Of a stretch of DNA of 64,000 nucleotides, positions 17,836 through 27,812 are shown piece after piece. Both the position numbers and the translations under genes were made by a program. Under the pieces are notes generated by a model. That model was not told the origin of the DNA. It did not search any database and worked only from the letters and a program-made list of their open reading frames with translations. How positions within the stretch are numbered: position 1 is the first letter of the stretch; the number at the start of each line of letters is the position of its first letter. Source of the DNA: Heminiphilus faecis (GTDB taxonomy: Bacteria > Bacteroidota > Bacteroidia > Bacteroidales > Muribaculaceae). The stretch covers positions 1 to 64,000 of the forward strand of contig NZ_VSMC01000010.1 in NCBI RefSeq assembly GCF_008728965.1, written 5' to 3'.

Positions 17836-20037
17836 ATGCGATTTAGTAATTTTGCCTTAACCTGCTTTTTGTTGACAGTATGTCTGATGACACCGTCACA
17901 CACAGGAGCCAACGGTCTTATATTTGACAACGTCGTCATACCTCATGAGGAATCAGGCAATTACGTAAGGGCAATAAACCAGTTGCCCGACGGACGAATG
18001 GTTTTTGTATCGGTAACCGGAGTGGACATATATGACGGTACGCATAGCAAAAGTCTGCCGGCATTTCCTGCGGAATATACCGCTCCGTTAAAATCATACA
18101 ACGGTTTTCATCACATGTATCTTGACAATGACTCTCTCCTATGGATAAAGGATTGGGGTAAAGTGTCATGCATAGACTTGCGTTACGAAAACTACAGGCC
18201 TGTCACGGATACAAACATGACCGACATATACATAGACGAGACCGGACGCCGAATTATACAATCGACGGATTCTCTGATATTCAACGGCAATTCGCTTCCT
18301 CGGTCAGTTCTAAACGGCACACTTCAGGATGTGGCAGGTGACAGCAGCACTTTATATATGTTTGATGACAGCGGCCGCATAACAGCATTCTCCGTAGCCG
18401 ACGGTGCCATACTCTACCATGCCGACGCTTACCCGCCAGAACAAAAAAAGGACTACAGCAGCACGTCGCTTATATGTAGCGGTAAAGACGGCTTCTATCA
18501 GATACGCAACGGAAAGAAAGGCGGTTTCTTTCATTTTTCCAAAAAAGAACGCTCTTGGACAAAAATACTTGAAACGCCATATACCCTTAACACACTTGCC
18601 ATCGGAGATGACAACAAAGCCTACATAAGTTGTCAAAGAGGCATGTGGATCATAGACCTCGACAGTGGCGAAAAAAAATATGACGAAATTTTACGTACAT
18701 CACACGGCGACCTGATAGCCACAGAGATAAGCACGGTATACGAAGACATGGATGGCGGTATATGGCTCGGCACATTCAACCGCGGTATACTGTACTATCA
18801 CCCGTCGAAATACGATAGCGGAAAAATATATTTAAATCCGCTCAATCTTAATGACACCTCGGGATATTTTGCGGAAAACCGCGATGGAAGCGTATATTAT
18901 TGTTGCGGCAATGATGCTTATGCCTTAAATGACAAATCATCGGACGGCAAACCGATAAAGCTATCGGAAATAAACATCGGGCATACGGTTTCAGGTTCTG
19001 CCAATACATTCGTATCTCACAACGGTAACGTATATTTCAAAACCGACTACGGTATAGATATTTTTTCGCCCCGCAAATCATATCAGGACGAAAGCCTTGC
19101 TCATAAACCGCTGCTTACGGCTCTATACATACACGGAGAGCGTATAGAGCAGGGCAAAGACTATAACGGACACGTAATACTCCCTTTCAGCGAAAGCAAG
19201 ACCGAACGTATCGAACTAACTCATAATCAAAACTTCATTGGCCTTGAGTACTCGACACTTAATTATATGAGCCGCGACTCACTGTCGCTGAGTTACCGCT
19301 TGTCAGGACTTGACCCATATACCGTAAAACTAAACTTGCCGCCGGGCGAAAACCGGTCATTTAAAATACCGTATACCAACATACCGCCGGGTGAATATCT
19401 GCTAACCGTAGAATCCGGAACAAATATCGCAAAACTTGAAATAGTCATACGACCTCCGTGGTGGCGCACCGTATGGGCTTACGCCCTGTATACGGTATTT
19501 AGCATTGTCTTATTGTTGGTGGCGGCATACATTTATAATAATGTGTCGCGAAAAAAAATGTTGCGCAAACACAGGGAGGACATGCTTCTTGCCCGTATAC
19601 GCAGCCTCATCGACCAATGCAATGCATATGAAAACGAACGAGTAATATCGGAATGTAATGCAACAAAACCGACACAAACGCCCAAAGCCATGGATGACAG
19701 CGACAGCCAATTCATATCAAAGGCTATGGAACTGGTCGAAAACAACATAAACACCGCAGGCTATTCAGTAGAGCAGTTAAGCCGCGACCTATGCATGGAC
19801 CGGACGGGATTATACCGCAAACTCATGTTGCTCCTCGACCAGTCGCCAAGTCTGTTCATAAGAAATATACGCCTGCGCCATGCCGCCAAGCTCTTGCTTG
19901 AAAACCGGGGATTAAGTATAGCGGAAGTAGCCGAACTGACCGGCTTCAGCAGCGGAAGTTATCTTAGCAAATGTTTTCAGGAGATTTATGGGTGTAAACC
20001 TTCGGAATATGCGGCAAAATCACAAGAATCAACATAG
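17836..20037 (+). CDS. Membrane one-component regulator: propeller/Y_Y_Y sensor plus AraC HTH
   Basis: The 733-residue protein resembles a Bacteroidota hybrid two-component regulator with the kinase and receiver removed. It has a signal peptide (1-24), a propeller-like periplasmic region (about 25-430, with DGGIWLGTFNRGI as a Reg_prop repeat), a Y_Y_Y-like domain (about 440-535), one membrane helix (about 545-565, VWAYALYTVFSIVLLL) and a charged linker. The C-terminal AraC HTH has the second-helix signature IAEVAELTGFSSGSYLSKCFQE. No H-box, HATPase or receiver motif is visible. It ends 101 bp before the GH31 gene and probably controls it in response to a periplasmic sugar. Confidence 0.85.
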   Translation: MRFSNFALTCFLLTVCLMTPSHTGANGLIFDNVVIPHEESGNYVRAINQLPDGRMVFVSVTGVDIYDGTHSKSLPAFPAEYTAPLKSYNGFHHMYLDNDSLLWIKDWGKVSCIDLRYENYRPVTDTNMTDIYIDETGRRIIQSTDSLIFNGNSLPRSVLNGTLQDVAGDSSTLYMFDDSGRITAFSVADGAILYHADAYPPEQKKDYSSTSLICSGKDGFYQIRNGKKGGFFHFSKKERSWTKILETPYTLNTLAIGDDNKAYISCQRGMWIIDLDSGEKKYDEILRTSHGDLIATEISTVYEDMDGGIWLGTFNRGILYYHPSKYDSGKIYLNPLNLNDTSGYFAENRDGSVYYCCGNDAYALNDKSSDGKPIKLSEINIGHTVSGSANTFVSHNGNVYFKTDYGIDIFSPRKSYQDESLAHKPLLTALYIHGERIEQGKDYNGHVILPFSESKTERIELTHNQNFIGLEYSTLNYMSRDSLSLSYRLSGLDPYTVKLNLPPGENRSFKIPYTNIPPGEYLLTVESGTNIAKLEIVIRPPWWRTVWAYALYTVFSIVLLLVAAYIYNNVSRKKMLRKHREDMLLARIRSLIDQCNAYENERVISECNATKPTQTPKAMDDSDSQFISKAMELVENNINTAGYSVEQLSRDLCMDRTGLYRKLMLLLDQSPSLFIRNIRLRHAAKLLLENRGLSIAEVAELTGFSSGSYLSKCFQEIYGCKPSEYAAKSQEST

Positions 20038-20066
20038 TTGTCGTTCATTTCAACATGATTGTTGTA

Positions 20067-20094
20067 TTGCAAATACGTTAAAACGTTAAATTTG
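20067..20094 (+). promoter_or_regulatory. GH31 promoter with tandem 8-bp repeat
   Basis: TTG (20067-20069) and TAAATTTG (20087-20094) form a -33/-7 pair spaced by 17 bp. Two adjacent copies of ACGTTAAA (20075-20082, 20083-20090) lie between and across them. GCAAAT (20069-20074) and ATTTGC (20090-20095) flank the repeats as inverted arms. AraC-family proteins often bind tandem direct half-sites, so this is a candidate operator for the adjacent regulator. Confidence 0.5.
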
Positions 20095-20138: not shown

Positions 20139-22616
20139 ATGAAACTTAAATGTATTGCTGTGTCACTTGTACTGCTCTGCGGCGGCATTATACAAGGACA
20201 GACGATAGAAGAGTTGCCACACGGCATAAAAACGGTCGTGGACTCTATGGTCATCAATCTTGAGTTCTTCACTCCGTCCACTGTACGAGTGACAAAAGTG
20301 CCGGAAAACTTGAAAAACGAAAAAGAGAGTTACTCTGTGACAGCAAAGCCACAAGACGTGAAATTTACCACATCACGCAGCGGTGACAATATCACGCTTA
20401 AAAGTTCGAAACTGAAGGTAACCCTCAACACAAAAAAAGGAACGGTATCATTTGCCGACAGCAAAGGCGGATTATTGCTGAAGGAAAAAAACAACGCTAT
20501 GTTCACCCCCATGCTTGATGCCGGAGTACCGTCATTCAATGTGAAGCAATCATTTGTACTTGATAAGGAAGAGCCCATATACGGACTCGGAAATTATGAG
20601 AACGGCAAGCTGTCATTACGTAATTTCTCCAGAAGACTTATGCCCGGAAATATCGAGGACGGCATACCGGTCATTCAATCAATAAAAGGATACGGTTTAT
20701 TCTGGGACAACTACTCCCCCACCGTTTTCTCCGACAATGCCGAAGGCATGACATTTGACTCCGAAGTCGGAGACTTGGCTGACTATTACTTTATGTATGG
20801 AGGAAATGCCGACGGAGTGATTGCCGAGATGCGCACACTGACCGGCACCGTGCCCATGTTCCCGCTATGGACCTATGGCTTCTGGCAAAGCCGCGAACGC
20901 TACAAGTCGCAAAACGAGATTCTTGAGGTAGTTGACAAACACAGAAAACTCGGTGTGCCCATCGACGGCATCATACAGGACTGGCAATACTGGGGCAACA
21001 ATTACCTGTGGAACGCAATGGAATTCATGAATCCGGAATTCAACAAACCGCAGATGATGGTAGACTCCATCCATAACATGAATGCTCATGCCATAATATC
21101 AATATGGTCTTCATTCGGACCCCAGACAAAGCCTTACCGCGAATTGGACGCCAAAGGGCTGCTTTTTAACTTCTCCACATGGCCGCAATCTGGCATAGCA
21201 GAACAGTGGCCTCCCCGCATGGACTATCCTTCAGGTGTACGCGTATATGATGCTTACAGCGCCGAAGCCCGCGATATTTACTGGAACAACCTGAAACGCC
21301 TCTTTGACTTTGGGCTTGACGGATGGTGGATGGATTCTACCGAACCCGACCACTTCGATGTCACATCTAAAGATATGGACACCAAAACAGCATTAGGCTC
21401 ATTCCGCCGTGTACGCGGCGCATACCCGCTGATGACTGTAGGCGGAGTATACGACCACCAGCGCGCAACCTCCGACGACAAACGCGTATTTATTCTCACA
21501 CGTTCGGGATGGGCCGGACAACAACGTTACGGATGCAACGTATGGACCGGCGACGTCACCTCGACATGGGATATGCTGCGCAATACCGTACCGGCTCTTA
21601 TGAATTTCTCCCTTACCGGAAACCCCAACTGCAACTCCGATATAGGAGGCTTCTTCTGTAACCAATACAACAAGCGTTCAGGCGACAACTCGGCACCGAA
21701 AAACCCACTTTTCCAAGAACTTTATGTGCGCTGGCTCCAGATGGGTACGTTTACTCCGATGATGCGCTCGCACGGAGCCGACATATTCCGCGAGATATAT
21801 TACTTCGGCGAAAAAGGCGAACCGATTTACGATGCCATTGAAGAGGGCATCAGACTTCGCTACTCACTGTTGCCTTACATATACTCTACCTCATGGCAGG
21901 TAACAAACAACAACGACAGCTATCTACGTCCGTTGATGATGGACTTCAAAGCCGACCGCAAGACATGGGAGTGCAACGACGAGTTCATGTTTGGGCGCAA
22001 CATACTGGTTGCTCCCGTGCTGAAAGCCCAATATACGCCTGAAAAGATAGTGAAAGCCGATGAAAACTCAGGTTGGAACATAGCCGGCGACATGAACAAT
22101 GAAAGCCTGAGTACAAAAAAAGTCGATTTCATGGCTCCGTCATCAACAGCAGTGTATCTGCCCAAGGGTGCAAAATGGTATGACTTCTGGACAAATGAAC
22201 TGATACCCGGAGGCCGCACAATCGAAAAAACGACTACAATCAAGACTATTCCATTGTATATAAAAGCAGGCAGCATAATGCCTTTCGGTCCTGATGTACA
22301 GTATTCGACAGAAAAGCCTTGGACCAATCTTGAAATAAGGGTATACCCCGGCGCTGACGGTTCGTTCACTTTATACGAAGATGAAAACGACAACTACAAT
22401 TACGAGAAAGGCATCTACTCCACCATCGACTTCAAGTGGGATAACAAAGCCAAGACCCTTACAATAGGCAAGCGCAACGGCGAATATCCCGGAATGGATA
22501 AAAACCGTAATTTCAACATCGTACTTGTATCGGAAAACTCAGGTGCAGGCAACAAACCGATGAAAGTCACCAAGTCGGTAAATTACTCAGGCAACGAACT
22601 GAAAGTAAAGCTCTAA
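20139..22616 (+). CDS. Secreted GH31 alpha-glucosidase/alpha-xylosidase
   Basis: The 825-residue protein is a GH31 glycoside hydrolase. It has a signal peptide (1-21), an N-terminal galactose mutarotase-like domain, a TIM barrel with the nucleophile Asp399 in WWMDSTEPD and the likely acid/base Asp472 in TGDVTSTW, and C-terminal beta domains. The PLWTYGFWQSRERY motif is typical of GH31 enzymes. Known family activities are alpha-glucosidase and alpha-xylosidase; the exact substrate is not decidable here. The lack of a SusC/SusD pair nearby means this is not a full polysaccharide utilisation locus. Confidence 0.93.
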   Translation: MKLKCIAVSLVLLCGGIIQGQTIEELPHGIKTVVDSMVINLEFFTPSTVRVTKVPENLKNEKESYSVTAKPQDVKFTTSRSGDNITLKSSKLKVTLNTKKGTVSFADSKGGLLLKEKNNAMFTPMLDAGVPSFNVKQSFVLDKEEPIYGLGNYENGKLSLRNFSRRLMPGNIEDGIPVIQSIKGYGLFWDNYSPTVFSDNAEGMTFDSEVGDLADYYFMYGGNADGVIAEMRTLTGTVPMFPLWTYGFWQSRERYKSQNEILEVVDKHRKLGVPIDGIIQDWQYWGNNYLWNAMEFMNPEFNKPQMMVDSIHNMNAHAIISIWSSFGPQTKPYRELDAKGLLFNFSTWPQSGIAEQWPPRMDYPSGVRVYDAYSAEARDIYWNNLKRLFDFGLDGWWMDSTEPDHFDVTSKDMDTKTALGSFRRVRGAYPLMTVGGVYDHQRATSDDKRVFILTRSGWAGQQRYGCNVWTGDVTSTWDMLRNTVPALMNFSLTGNPNCNSDIGGFFCNQYNKRSGDNSAPKNPLFQELYVRWLQMGTFTPMMRSHGADIFREIYYFGEKGEPIYDAIEEGIRLRYSLLPYIYSTSWQVTNNNDSYLRPLMMDFKADRKTWECNDEFMFGRNILVAPVLKAQYTPEKIVKADENSGWNIAGDMNNESLSTKKVDFMAPSSTAVYLPKGAKWYDFWTNELIPGGRTIEKTTTIKTIPLYIKAGSIMPFGPDVQYSTEKPWTNLEIRVYPGADGSFTLYEDENDNYNYEKGIYSTIDFKWDNKAKTLTIGKRNGEYPGMDKNRNFNIVLVSENSGAGNKPMKVTKSVNYSGNELKVKL

Positions 22617-23081: not shown

Positions 23082-26000
23082 TTATTTTATGATTTTGCGG
23101 GCGAGAGCCGGTATTTTCAGTATGCCGTTCAATATTTTGACAGGATAATTTTTATCGGTATTGACAATAAGCCGCAACCGGTGACCACAGCCGGGGCAAT
23201 GCATTTCATCAACAGAAAATCCTTTATCGATTACGTGGCCGCACATCGGGCACACCGCCTCCGGGTCACGCAATTTTCCGGTCGTAAGATCCCACCGGCG
23301 ACGCAGCACGGTTACAGGCAATTCGTTAACCTTATGAGCAGGATCGGTCGCGAACAGTGCACAATGGCAGTCATGTTTGGCTACGGCAAGTCCTTGCGCG
23401 GTACTCTGCCAATAGCGCTTAGCTTTGGCATTGTGAAGCGACGTAAACTGCAGTCGAGTCCCGTCAACATCATAAAGCGATATTGTATTGTCGTAACACG
23501 ACACATATAAATGTCGATCATCAGCCACAGGCAGCACAGACTCAACATTATTCAAACGGAAAAGAACCTGTCCAGTTCTACTATCGACAACCGACATAGT
23601 GGCACCAGTGTCTATAGTAAACATATAACGACCCGATGCGGAAATACTTATACACAACTCTCCGTTTTCAAGATATCGGTCAACAACAGTCGAATTTACA
23701 GGGTGAAACAAACCTCGCACATCATAGTTGTCGTATCTCCTGTCTTCATATTTTCTAATAGCCTTAAGCGAGAACTTACCGTCCATTTTCTTCCCGTGAC
23801 TTACTACTTTGCATGAAGATAAATCAATCATAGGTCCGGAAATGCCTACCGATACGAATCTGTTATCGGGCGATAATGCTGCCACCTTGTATTCATCAAG
23901 GTAGCAATCCTTTTCAATTAATAGTTCTTTTACAAAGTTTCCGGTACAGTCAAACAAATACAATGACATATCCGATCTAAATAGCCAATCACTTGTAATG
24001 ACAACAAACCAAAAGCTGTCACTAGTAAACAATATAGATGAAGCCTGCGCACATATTTTATATTTAGATAATAGTTTATTAAACTTTACATCATAAACAA
24101 ATATAATAGACTCTTGATTTGTGTATGTACAATAAGCGAGATACTTACCATCAGGAGATACTGCCGAAGCCGATACATAATGACAATACTCTGACCGGTC
24201 GACATCAAGAAACATCTCATCGTACTCTCCGGCAGAGTTTTTTACCGTCAATACGGGGACACGTATTTCACCGGTCTCCCACGCAACATTCCGGCCAATA
24301 GATACAACCATAACATCTCCGGAATAAGACGCGGAAAAACTGTTTATTCCAGAATAATTACCATGATTATTTACCGCAAAGCTCTTACGCAACTGCCGGA
24401 AATCAAATACCTTTTTATTGCTTATTGACAACGCCCGTGTGAAATCGGGGGTCACTTGATCTACAACGTGCATGTTGCCCTGTTCAATTACCGACAACAT
24501 AGTATTGGCAACTCTCGCAATCTGATATGCCCCGCTACAGAGATAGAACAGATAAAAATCCGATGTTCCGTGAATAAATTTCACCGAATTAATAGGAGCT
24601 TGTCGATAATGCTTCCAATATCGTAATCGATTATCTTGAAAATTAAATATTTTACCCTGATCACCATCAATAACAGCAATATGCTCCGAACATCCGATAA
24701 TTTTATTACGCGAAAATGACCAACTGGTCAATCTCGGTTTTTTATCATATTTAAAAGCTACAGTATCGCTTTTAAGAGAAACGAAATCGCAGCAACCTAC
24801 AATACTATCCCATTTTTCCTTTTCCCTTTCCGGAACTTCCTTTATGTAATATATCCAAAGTCGGTTTCCTGACGGGGACAACATTCCCTCATCAGCCGAA
24901 ATCCATGTATAACTGCGGGAGGTAGCGATTTCCACCCTGTATGTTTTTATTGTCGGGCCTCCGTAAGCAATGTATTGTCCGTTCTCTGACAGACTCATCC
25001 ATATGATACCCTTATTGAATATACTAAGGATCGGTATCATTCCCACCAATTTAAACACTTGGATTCTTTCAGAATAATGCATGGCAAGAATTTTTTCGTC
25101 AGCAGATATGGCGTAAGTAAACGGTTCTATAAATATAAATATCGTTTCTATCGTACCTGACACAAGATCCAATCGTTCGAGTATAGGATGTCCGTCGGCA
25201 CCTGTTACTATACGATACAATTTTTCACCTGACGGGTTGAGCCACGGATACCGGCCGCAATTATCTATGCTGAATAGAGTATAACGCTCACTGTCGATAT
25301 TATTAAGTTTGTCACGCATCAATTTCGAGTAGAGGCGCTCTGGCGGAATTTCCCGCAACGGGTGTCCGTCCCAAAGGTTAATCATCCTCGCCTGAAGTTC
25401 AAGTGGCGACAATGGCGGCATGTTTTGTCCTACTGACCATGACTCCCGAAACGCCTTGTCATCCAAACTCGTATAGCTTACAAAATTCTTCATCTGCGAG
25501 ACAAGTTCCCGTCGACGTATATCGCCCAATTCGGTATATATAGACAACAGCCGATCATATTCACTGACTATCGTATCGGGAAAGTACTTTTCTTTCAACA
25601 GAATATATCGCTCGTCGGAAAGTATACCCCATAGCTTACGACCTACAGCTTTACGGATTGACATCTCCTCCTCTCCGTAAAGCGTGCCGTCGAGCGCACT
25701 ATCAAAAGCATCGTCTAAAGAGTGAATATCATCCACCGGGGCATGTACGGCATGAACAAAGTCGCGTATGGCGAGTTTGTTCTCTTTGAACAAATTTTCC
25801 TCATACCAACGCACCTGCAGCTCGCTCGCATGCTTGCGCTCATCTTCGGTAAGCCAGCGGTATTTTATAAACTCGTGTATGGCATCATGACGCACTTTAA
25901 CCGCCACTCCTATGGATGTGCTGCGCGAAACAAGTATCACACGGTCAAGGTCATAAAACAGGCGGCTCCATATTATAGGCGGCACACTTTTGACATCCTC

Positions 26001-27812
26001 CTGTATCCATAAATGAAAACTGCGTTCCATAAGTTCGGCCTGCAGTTCATAGTCTGACGCAAGAAGACCGTTAAGCGAATTCACATCAACACCATCGCTG
26101 CTCGTAACAATCATGGCAAGCGCTAGTTGTGTAAGTCTACGACCGTGCATCTGCGGTGAGGCGAGCCTGTCAAGTATCATCGAGCACATAGACACATAGT
26201 CGCCCGGAAGTCCGGTAAGATCCATAGTCGAGTCATAATGCTGCAGGACCGACGACAAAAGCGACAGATACAGGGCTGACTGCTCTTTGTCGCCCAACAG
26301 CACCTTTAGCTGTGCCAACTGAAAAGACTGCAATCGCCTGCCCGCAGCTTGCAAACGCGATACAACCACCCGCAACGCATCACTCTTAATCGCTTCGAGA
26401 TGCATAACATGTAACCGGGGATGCTCCTTTGGGAAACGTCCCTCCGTGGTTGACGTTATGATGATTTTTACATTGGAGGGCAGTAACTTTTCTTTGTCAG
26501 CAGCCCATATGAGACTGTCAAAATCATCATATCCTGTATTGTCAAGCTGATTAAACGCATCTATTATAATCAGATACCGTTTATCATGAGAAAAACGATG
26601 CGCTTCATCCACAAGATTGACAAACTTTTCATATGGCTTACGTTTATCCTTTCGATACCGGTCGGCATACTCCCGGTCAAAGCAGTTACAGACCAACTCC
26701 AACATTGATTGAGCACCGGAAGAGCGCGGTGTAAGGCTACTGAAAAACGGCATGACACAATAGCTCTTATCGGCGGTATACAGCGACACGACCTTAGCCA
26801 TCAACGCACTTTTACCAAGTCCGGAATCTCCCTTAATCCATAACGGCATATCCGGTTCAGTCGAGTCTACGTATTCTCTTATCTTTTTAATGTCATCGGC
26901 TCGTCCATAAAAACCCACGGCCTCCGATGCGGCATATTCTCGATGCTCAAACAACTCGTAGTCTATATCATCGACAGACTCGCGAGATACCTCTTTCTCA
27001 ACTATTTTCCGTAAATGCTCTTCAATGGTTTGCGAAAAACGCGATGCAAAACCGTCAGAAAGATATTCCTCCCACGCAATATTTTCTTCGTAGACATTTT
27101 CAGGCTTGGCCAGTTCCGAAACTTTCCTCCTCAATCGGGCTATGTACTCCAATCCTGACGCATCACTGTCATAATATGCGACACGTTTATCGTCAGGCAC
27201 ATCCTTAAGCGAACGCATGTAAGCAAACACATGGTCGGATGCATGAGCGGCATCAAGAGCCCCTTTGCGTATCTCCATCTCCGTGGCCGAACAGTCGGTA
27301 AAGGGCAACTCACGGTAAAACAGTATAAGCAACGGCAACTCGACTTCACGATGAAAACGTTCGCCGTCATACCCGGAACCAAGACGACTTTTCAGCACAT
27401 AGGCACCCTGCATAGTCAGGTCATTGTCATCGCGCACATACCAGCGGTCAAGCAGTTCTACCTCTTCCGGCATAGCCGCTTCGTATACACGCCTCATGTC
27501 AGCGATTGAAATCGTCTCAGGGAGCGGACGCCAACCGTAGCGCTCGCCGATAAGCATTATAAAATTGGGGCGTGGTGACAGTTTCTGACATTGTGCAAGT
27601 TCATTAAGGCATATTGTCATTGTACGGTTGTCTTCGCCGGCATCAGGACTTATGCCCCACCGCAGATCTATGTATTCTATCTGCCAGCCGAGACTCTCGT
27701 ACTCCTTGTCAAGGCGCTCTATGACCTTGCGCAACAAATTGCGCTCCACCTCCATGTCAGAGAAGGTGGAGCTTATAAAAAACCTTATATACTTATGTCT
27801 TAAAACAGACAC
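23082..27812 (-). CDS. Giant STAND NTPase: DUF4062-like, NACHT, beta-propeller, zinc ribbon
   Basis: This is a 1576-residue STAND-type protein. Residues 1-100 match the DUF4062/NPHP3-TEP1-like N-terminus (FFISSTFSDMEVERN at 11-25, IDLRWGIS at 48-55, GERYGWRPLP at 89-98). Residues 300-660 are a NACHT-like P-loop ATPase: Walker A GDSGLGKS (328-335), Walker B LIIIDAFNQLD (414-424), and a winged-helix-type RHDAIHEFIKY (641-651). Residues about 860-1500 hold propeller-like repeats such as AISADEKILAMHY, VSPDGKYLAY and ISASGRYMF. A C-terminal zinc ribbon has Cys1521, Cys1524, Cys1539 and Cys1542 (CPMC, CPGC). Such architecture resembles NLR-like antiphage or conflict proteins: N-terminal effector or adaptor, ATPase switch, sensor. 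The N-terminus could alternatively be a signalling adaptor rather than an effector. Parts of the propeller region are markedly AT-rich. Confidence 0.9.
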   Translation of the reverse strand: MSVLRHKYIRFFISSTFSDMEVERNLLRKVIERLDKEYESLGWQIEYIDLRWGISPDAGEDNRTMTICLNELAQCQKLSPRPNFIMLIGERYGWRPLPETISIADMRRVYEAAMPEEVELLDRWYVRDDNDLTMQGAYVLKSRLGSGYDGERFHREVELPLLILFYRELPFTDCSATEMEIRKGALDAAHASDHVFAYMRSLKDVPDDKRVAYYDSDASGLEYIARLRRKVSELAKPENVYEENIAWEEYLSDGFASRFSQTIEEHLRKIVEKEVSRESVDDIDYELFEHREYAASEAVGFYGRADDIKKIREYVDSTEPDMPLWIKGDSGLGKSALMAKVVSLYTADKSYCVMPFFSSLTPRSSGAQSMLELVCNCFDREYADRYRKDKRKPYEKFVNLVDEAHRFSHDKRYLIIIDAFNQLDNTGYDDFDSLIWAADKEKLLPSNVKIIITSTTEGRFPKEHPRLHVMHLEAIKSDALRVVVSRLQAAGRRLQSFQLAQLKVLLGDKEQSALYLSLLSSVLQHYDSTMDLTGLPGDYVSMCSMILDRLASPQMHGRRLTQLALAMIVTSSDGVDVNSLNGLLASDYELQAELMERSFHLWIQEDVKSVPPIIWSRLFYDLDRVILVSRSTSIGVAVKVRHDAIHEFIKYRWLTEDERKHASELQVRWYEENLFKENKLAIRDFVHAVHAPVDDIHSLDDAFDSALDGTLYGEEEMSIRKAVGRKLWGILSDERYILLKEKYFPDTIVSEYDRLLSIYTELGDIRRRELVSQMKNFVSYTSLDDKAFRESWSVGQNMPPLSPLELQARMINLWDGHPLREIPPERLYSKLMRDKLNNIDSERYTLFSIDNCGRYPWLNPSGEKLYRIVTGADGHPILERLDLVSGTIETIFIFIEPFTYAISADEKILAMHYSERIQVFKLVGMIPILSIFNKGIIWMSLSENGQYIAYGGPTIKTYRVEIATSRSYTWISADEGMLSPSGNRLWIYYIKEVPEREKEKWDSIVGCCDFVSLKSDTVAFKYDKKPRLTSWSFSRNKIIGCSEHIAVIDGDQGKIFNFQDNRLRYWKHYRQAPINSVKFIHGTSDFYLFYLCSGAYQIARVANTMLSVIEQGNMHVVDQVTPDFTRALSISNKKVFDFRQLRKSFAVNNHGNYSGINSFSASYSGDVMVVSIGRNVAWETGEIRVPVLTVKNSAGEYDEMFLDVDRSEYCHYVSASAVSPDGKYLAYCTYTNQESIIFVYDVKFNKLLSKYKICAQASSILFTSDSFWFVVITSDWLFRSDMSLYLFDCTGNFVKELLIEKDCYLDEYKVAALSPDNRFVSVGISGPMIDLSSCKVVSHGKKMDGKFSLKAIRKYEDRRYDNYDVRGLFHPVNSTVVDRYLENGELCISISASGRYMFTIDTGATMSVVDSRTGQVLFRLNNVESVLPVADDRHLYVSCYDNTISLYDVDGTRLQFTSLHNAKAKRYWQSTAQGLAVAKHDCHCALFATDPAHKVNELPVTVLRRRWDLTTGKLRDPEAVCPMCGHVIDKGFSVDEMHCPGCGHRLRLIVNTDKNYPVKILNGILKIPALARKIIK

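Follow-up and report, generated by a model that had tools for sequence, protein, structure and literature searches.

A predicted membrane regulator with an HTCS-type sensor and an AraC-type output, lacking kinase and receiver and linked to a GH31 gene in Heminiphilus faecis

The coupling of ligand to DNA in the hybrid two-component regulators (HTCS) is usually explained by phosphotransfer. How, then, might the signal travel in a protein that has the sensor and the output of an HTCS but nothing of the relay between them? This question is raised by a gene in the window analysed here, a stretch of 64,000 nucleotides of Heminiphilus faecis (contig NZ_VSMC01000010.1, positions 1 to 64,000), whose product is laid out as follows.

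17836..20037, + strand: kinase-less membrane regulator gene, 733 aa (ORF, Pfam, AlphaFold2, conserved family)
17920..19071, + strand: periplasmic all-beta sensor, propeller-like, residues 29-412 (AlphaFold2 strands, PDB fold matches)
19111..19449, + strand: Y_Y_Y beta-sandwich domain, residues 426-538 (Pfam PF07495 at 481-527, AlphaFold2)
19471..19527, + strand: single TM helix, residues 546-564 (hydropathy, alignment of 72 relatives)
19528..19650, + strand: juxtamembrane helix, residues 565-605 (conservation, continuous helix in AlphaFold2)
19696..20031, + strand: AraC-type DNA-binding domain, residues 621-732 (Pfam, AlphaFold2)

Architecture of the regulator

The first-pass annotation had read these 733 residues as a propeller/Y_Y_Y sensor joined by one membrane helix and a linker to an AraC domain, and Pfam, hydropathy and AlphaFold2 bear this out. 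The frame (17836-20037, +) is intact from its ATG start. Pfam finds Reg_prop (E 1.7e-6) and a double helix-turn-helix of the AraC type (HTH_18 at 1.2e-17 over residues 648-727, HTH_AraC at 2.5e-12), and a weak Y_Y_Y match (E 5.4e-4, under the Pfam curated cut-off for this member) to a domain that is matched in 51 of 58 kinase-less proteins at E<=0.01. In an AlphaFold2 model built from 72 family sequences (mean pLDDT 88.4) the sensor strands mostly exceed a pLDDT of 90, and in the PDB the sensor comes closest in fold to the periplasmic domains of three HTCS, BT4663, BT4673 and BT3049. Sequence and model together thus predict a membrane protein with a periplasmic sensor.

The segment between membrane and DNA-binding domain is modelled as one unbroken helix (546-605), which passes through the membrane and continues for about 40 residues, followed by a low-confidence linker (602-618) and the helical AraC domain (621-732). 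Among the 72 aligned relatives, P541, W542 and W543 are near-invariant just before the TM helix, E581 and L591 are invariant in the juxtamembrane helix and L584, R587 and I588 are highly conserved there, while the linker (~602-620) is poorly conserved and modelled with low confidence. Positions 584/588/591/595/598 are spaced in a heptad-like way, which suggests a parallel coiled coil through which the protein may dimerize. Within the AraC domain, C653, C713 and C720 are invariant across the 72 family members.

The same annotation had noted that H-box, HATPase and receiver are missing, and this holds. No match to HisKA, HATPase_c or Response_reg was obtained at E<=0.01 in the regulator or in 57 other kinase-less proteins, while all three were matched normally in a positive-control HTCS (L170). 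A conserved histidine was not found in 560-625, the best candidate, H579, being present in 49% of the 72 relatives, and the AlphaFold2 model has neither room for a kinase nor a trace of one. Conservation, Pfam and AlphaFold2 thus rule out a hidden kinase or phospho-histidine in 565-630, the stretch in which a divergent kinase had been sought as a refutation.

A longer gene split by a frameshift in the assembly, the other refutation that had been proposed, is excluded by the conservation of this layout across Bacteroidota. In all the proteins collected, the spacing between Y_Y_Y and AraC is bimodal, 34-85 residues in 102 proteins versus 421-477 in 38 HTCS, with none intermediate. In two congeners the orthologue is kinase-less too and of full length, with the same layout in an intact frame. 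Y_Y_Y proteins number 11 in the host genome itself; seven, at 1293-1436 aa, are as long as an HTCS, and the other four are short (740-944 aa). With the kinase absent and the layout conserved, the reading of this protein as a one-component version built from the parts of a hybrid regulator is supported.

Relatives and origins of the kinase-less layout

A scan of the genomes with a single sequence found no relatives, and neither did one with a too-diverse alignment; a three-sequence profile scan of the species-genome collection provided the best 80 loci of 134 relatives. The family members span Bacteroidales, Flavobacteriaceae, Sphingobacteriaceae, Chitinophagaceae, Leadbetterellaceae and others. 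On a tree of the AraC domain, 41 of them form one clade (support 100/99), which is recovered with support of 100/100 on the combined tree, and 16 other kinase-less proteins are scattered among HTCS. A single clade of all kinase-less proteins is rejected by the AU test for the AraC domain (p=2e-5) as well as for the sensor end (p=0.007), and the starred branches of the combined tree imply at least six state changes between HTCS and the rest. Since the kinase-less proteins are not monophyletic, the layout arose more than once, the number and direction of these origins being uncertain as several of the scattered proteins are long-branched.

Two more kinase-less proteins with the propeller-Y_Y_Y-TM-AraC order, belonging to other lineages, are encoded in the host genome. 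One (C18:34451-35275, L040) adjoins SusC/SusD and the other (C90:84166-85038, L041) glycosidase-like genes.

The GH31 gene and a candidate operator

Three further features lie at or beyond the end of the regulator gene.

20029..20065, + strand: candidate operator, direct repeats TCAACATAGTTGTCGT / TCAACATGATTGTTGT, 21 bp start to start (motif comparison)
20087..20094, + strand: -7 promoter element TAAATTTG (TAnnTTTG type), 58 bp from operator start (conserved spacing)
20139..22616, + strand: GH31 glycosidase, 825 aa, candidate target gene (Pfam, PDB sequence search, linkage)

The proximity of a GH31 gene is a property of the family. GH31 is encoded within 8 kb at 79 of 85 family loci, versus 10/38 for HTCS, which were top-scoring matches rather than a random draw, and 1/17 for other kinase-less proteins; many of the sampled loci are contigs of metagenome-assembled genomes and the family loci, having been retrieved via AraC-domain patterns, are biased towards close relatives. 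For the tightest arrangement (same strand, GH31 less than 400 bp downstream) the counts are 64/85, 6/38 and 0/17, respectively (Fisher p=6e-10). After redundancy reduction (<60% identity), 35 of the 41 regulators retained have GH31 within 8 kb. Among the 38 true HTCS (L170-L207), six (e.g. L172, L174, L175, L178, L185 and L202) are directly followed by a GH31 as well, but one of another, more distant kind. The solved enzymes nearest to the GH31 of the window in a PDB sequence search are alpha-xylosidases (7kmp, BoGH31A 5jou and Xyl31A 2xvg), which makes an alpha-xyloside or alpha-glucoside a plausible signal for the regulator. Further along, the window encodes on the opposite strand (23082-27812, -) a 1576-aa protein that combines DUF4062 and a NACHT/STAND ATPase with a beta-propeller-like part at its C-terminus. 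This protein resembles STAND-type defence or signalling proteins, the PADLOC match being only weak.

The gaps between regulator and GH31 share a tandem direct repeat, in which TCAACATnnTTGTTGT occurs twice with a period of 21 bp. The exact pair is present at 45 of 85 family loci and 0 of 62 control regulators, and it never appeared in 200 rounds of dinucleotide shuffles; in about a quarter of the family loci, a recognizable operator is absent downstream of the regulator. TAnnTTTG is the -7 promoter element of Bacteroidota, and it starts 57-58 bp from the operator start at 39 of 40 exact sites, a spacing that about 20 further loci retain although their operators have diverged. In the redundancy-reduced set, 22 of 41 regulators have the exact pair, 18 of these 22 at 57-58 bp. 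The operator pattern occurs once in the 64 kb of the window, where none is expected, and a control pattern with 20-bp spacing gave no match there and two stray matches in 396 genomes. Across the genome collection, the 21-bp pattern has 20 matches in 17 genomes, most of which, outside the host and genome G122, have no TTGT tails and seem to be low-complexity or chance repeats.

The first half-site overlaps the last two codons and the stop of the regulator gene (TCA ACA TAG, positions 20026-20037 reading GAA TCA ACA TAG). Such an overlap is found at 27 of the 45 loci with an exact operator and the C-terminus K/E-S-T is conserved, the Ser-Thr end being explained by the half-site that lies on these codons. 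In a Prevotella-type subfamily (L143, L152, L156-L165), the sensor is shorter (proteins of ~650 aa) and the half-site is shifted, with TCATTTGT replacing TCAACAT while the promoter distance is still 58 bp, which suggests co-evolution of domain and site. Position and co-occurrence thus point to the repeat as the candidate operator of the regulator.

In the whole host genome the exact pair is present twice, in the window and on a second contig before a SusC/SusD pair (C90:37083-37114; L248:9079-9115, -), where TAAATTTG follows at 57 bp from the operator start. The SusC frame on this contig is broken near its N-terminus (an assembly error or a pseudogene). These SusC/SusD proteins are 90% identical to a pair encoded directly 3' of a related regulator in genome G012, so that the same module is contiguous in G012 and split in the host. 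This suggests that the SusC/SusD pair of the host may also be controlled by the regulator, from the second operator copy.

A proposed mechanism and its place among known systems

We think it likely that the regulator is a membrane-anchored one-component activator of the GH31 gene, i.e. a variant of HTCS that works without a phosphorelay. In the scheme that we infer, the propeller and Y_Y_Y domains would bind a sugar as signal, probably an oligosaccharide that the GH31 pathway produces or uses up, and the ligand would alter the packing of a dimer via the TM helix and the conserved juxtamembrane helix (probably a coiled coil), so that the signal would reach the two AraC domains directly. The AraC pair would occupy the tandem 21-bp repeat beside the -33 region, which its downstream half-site, ending about 21 bp before TAnnTTTG, would overlap, and RNA polymerase would be recruited to the GH31 promoter as it is by class II AraC activators. 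Such an anchored, mechanical reading is the most economical one because the published HTCS motifs include direct repeats with the same period (16+5 and 12+9 bp, PMC3878776), and because intact HTCS bind DNA while membrane-bound, as found by ChIP (PMC3404733).

The poorly conserved linker could also serve as a protease cut site, in which case the ligand would trigger release of the AraC domain, which would diffuse to the operator with no anchored binding, in the manner of regulated intramembrane proteolysis. We regard this as unlikely, since residues 572-599 of the juxtamembrane helix are far more conserved than a plain tether requires and since HTCS bind DNA unproteolysed (PMC3404733). The overlap of the downstream half-site with the -33 element would equally suit a repressor from which the ligand frees the GH31 promoter, but a tandem direct repeat at fixed spacing abutting -33 is the arrangement usually seen with AraC-type activators. 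The characterized HTCS that have an AraC output and 21-bp repeats also activate their polysaccharide utilization loci (PMC3878776, PMC3404733), and repression is therefore improbable too. Modification in trans by a separate kinase or partner, for which the seven full-length HTCS of the host could be considered, is very improbable given that the regulator has no receiver to accept a phosphoryl group and no conserved histidine in its linker. That the protein is the functionless remnant of an HTCS that has decayed or lost its frame, or else an artefact of the assembly, with outer and output parts present and the middle missing, is scarcely credible in view of the identical layout in dozens of Bacteroidota genomes, with intact frames, a tight bimodal gap, a conserved operator, GH31 linkage and clade support of 100/99.

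The closest counterparts of the regulator are HTCS such as BT4663, BT3049 and BT4673, with which it shares the periplasmic Reg_prop propeller, Y_Y_Y, the TM helix, the C-terminal AraC domain and, for its candidate operator, direct repeats with a 21-bp period (PMC3878776). It differs from them in the absence of HisKA, HATPase and receiver, in length (733 aa versus ~1300-1450) and in a propeller region that is smaller than the double-propeller HTCS sensor. Since intact HTCS are known to bind DNA while anchored, membrane-tethered DNA binding is in itself not new. Martens (2011) states only that the full set of cytoplasmic domains is present in ‘most’ HTCS (PMC3243724). BT4673 and BT3049 are no kinase-less precedent, as ‘one component system’ in their PDB entries is a depositor or annotation name and BT4673 is listed as an HTCS (PMC3878776). 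A word-based search of the open-access literature found no paper describing a kinase-less AraC type. It is conceivable, if a little short of an even chance, that kinase and receiver were lost independently in several unrelated branches of the HTCS superfamily and that the GH31 lineage at least has kept the 21-bp operator geometry of HTCS.

Other one-component systems offer partial parallels. ToxR and CadC are membrane one-component regulators with an N-terminal winged helix and no phosphorelay; like the regulator they combine a periplasmic sensor, one TM helix and a cytoplasmic DNA-binding domain, but their periplasmic domain is C-terminal, which is the reverse topology, and their sensor is unrelated. 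AraC/XylS activators (AraC, RhaS, GadX) have the same type of DNA-binding domain and, as predicted here, a tandem direct-repeat operator beside the promoter, but they are soluble with cytoplasmic sensors whereas the regulator is membrane-tethered with a periplasmic propeller. SusR (BT3705), a membrane protein with a periplasmic sensor and a cytoplasmic DNA-binding domain (PMC3878776), resembles it as an inner-membrane one-component regulator of glycan genes. The gene at the SusR position in the sus locus of B. faecis (L169) encodes a DUF6377 protein in which the TPR and HTH signals are weak and propeller, Y_Y_Y and AraC domain are absent. Membership of the SusR group was rejected, as phmmer gave no match between this homologue and the regulator and the latter has no PF19904.

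These findings call for caution in annotation, kinase-less regulators of this kind not being two-component systems. For many GH31 genes of Bacteroidota they predict a regulator, an operator and a promoter, and they provide a compact, ready-made sugar switch. A family with an HTCS-type sensor and output and no phosphorelay isolates the mechanical step, in one protein with one operator. If several lineages have indeed lost kinase and receiver independently while the GH31 lineage kept the operator geometry, the sensor would be able to drive the AraC output by a mechanical step through the membrane, and the phosphorelay of HTCS would be an evolutionary option, not a necessity.
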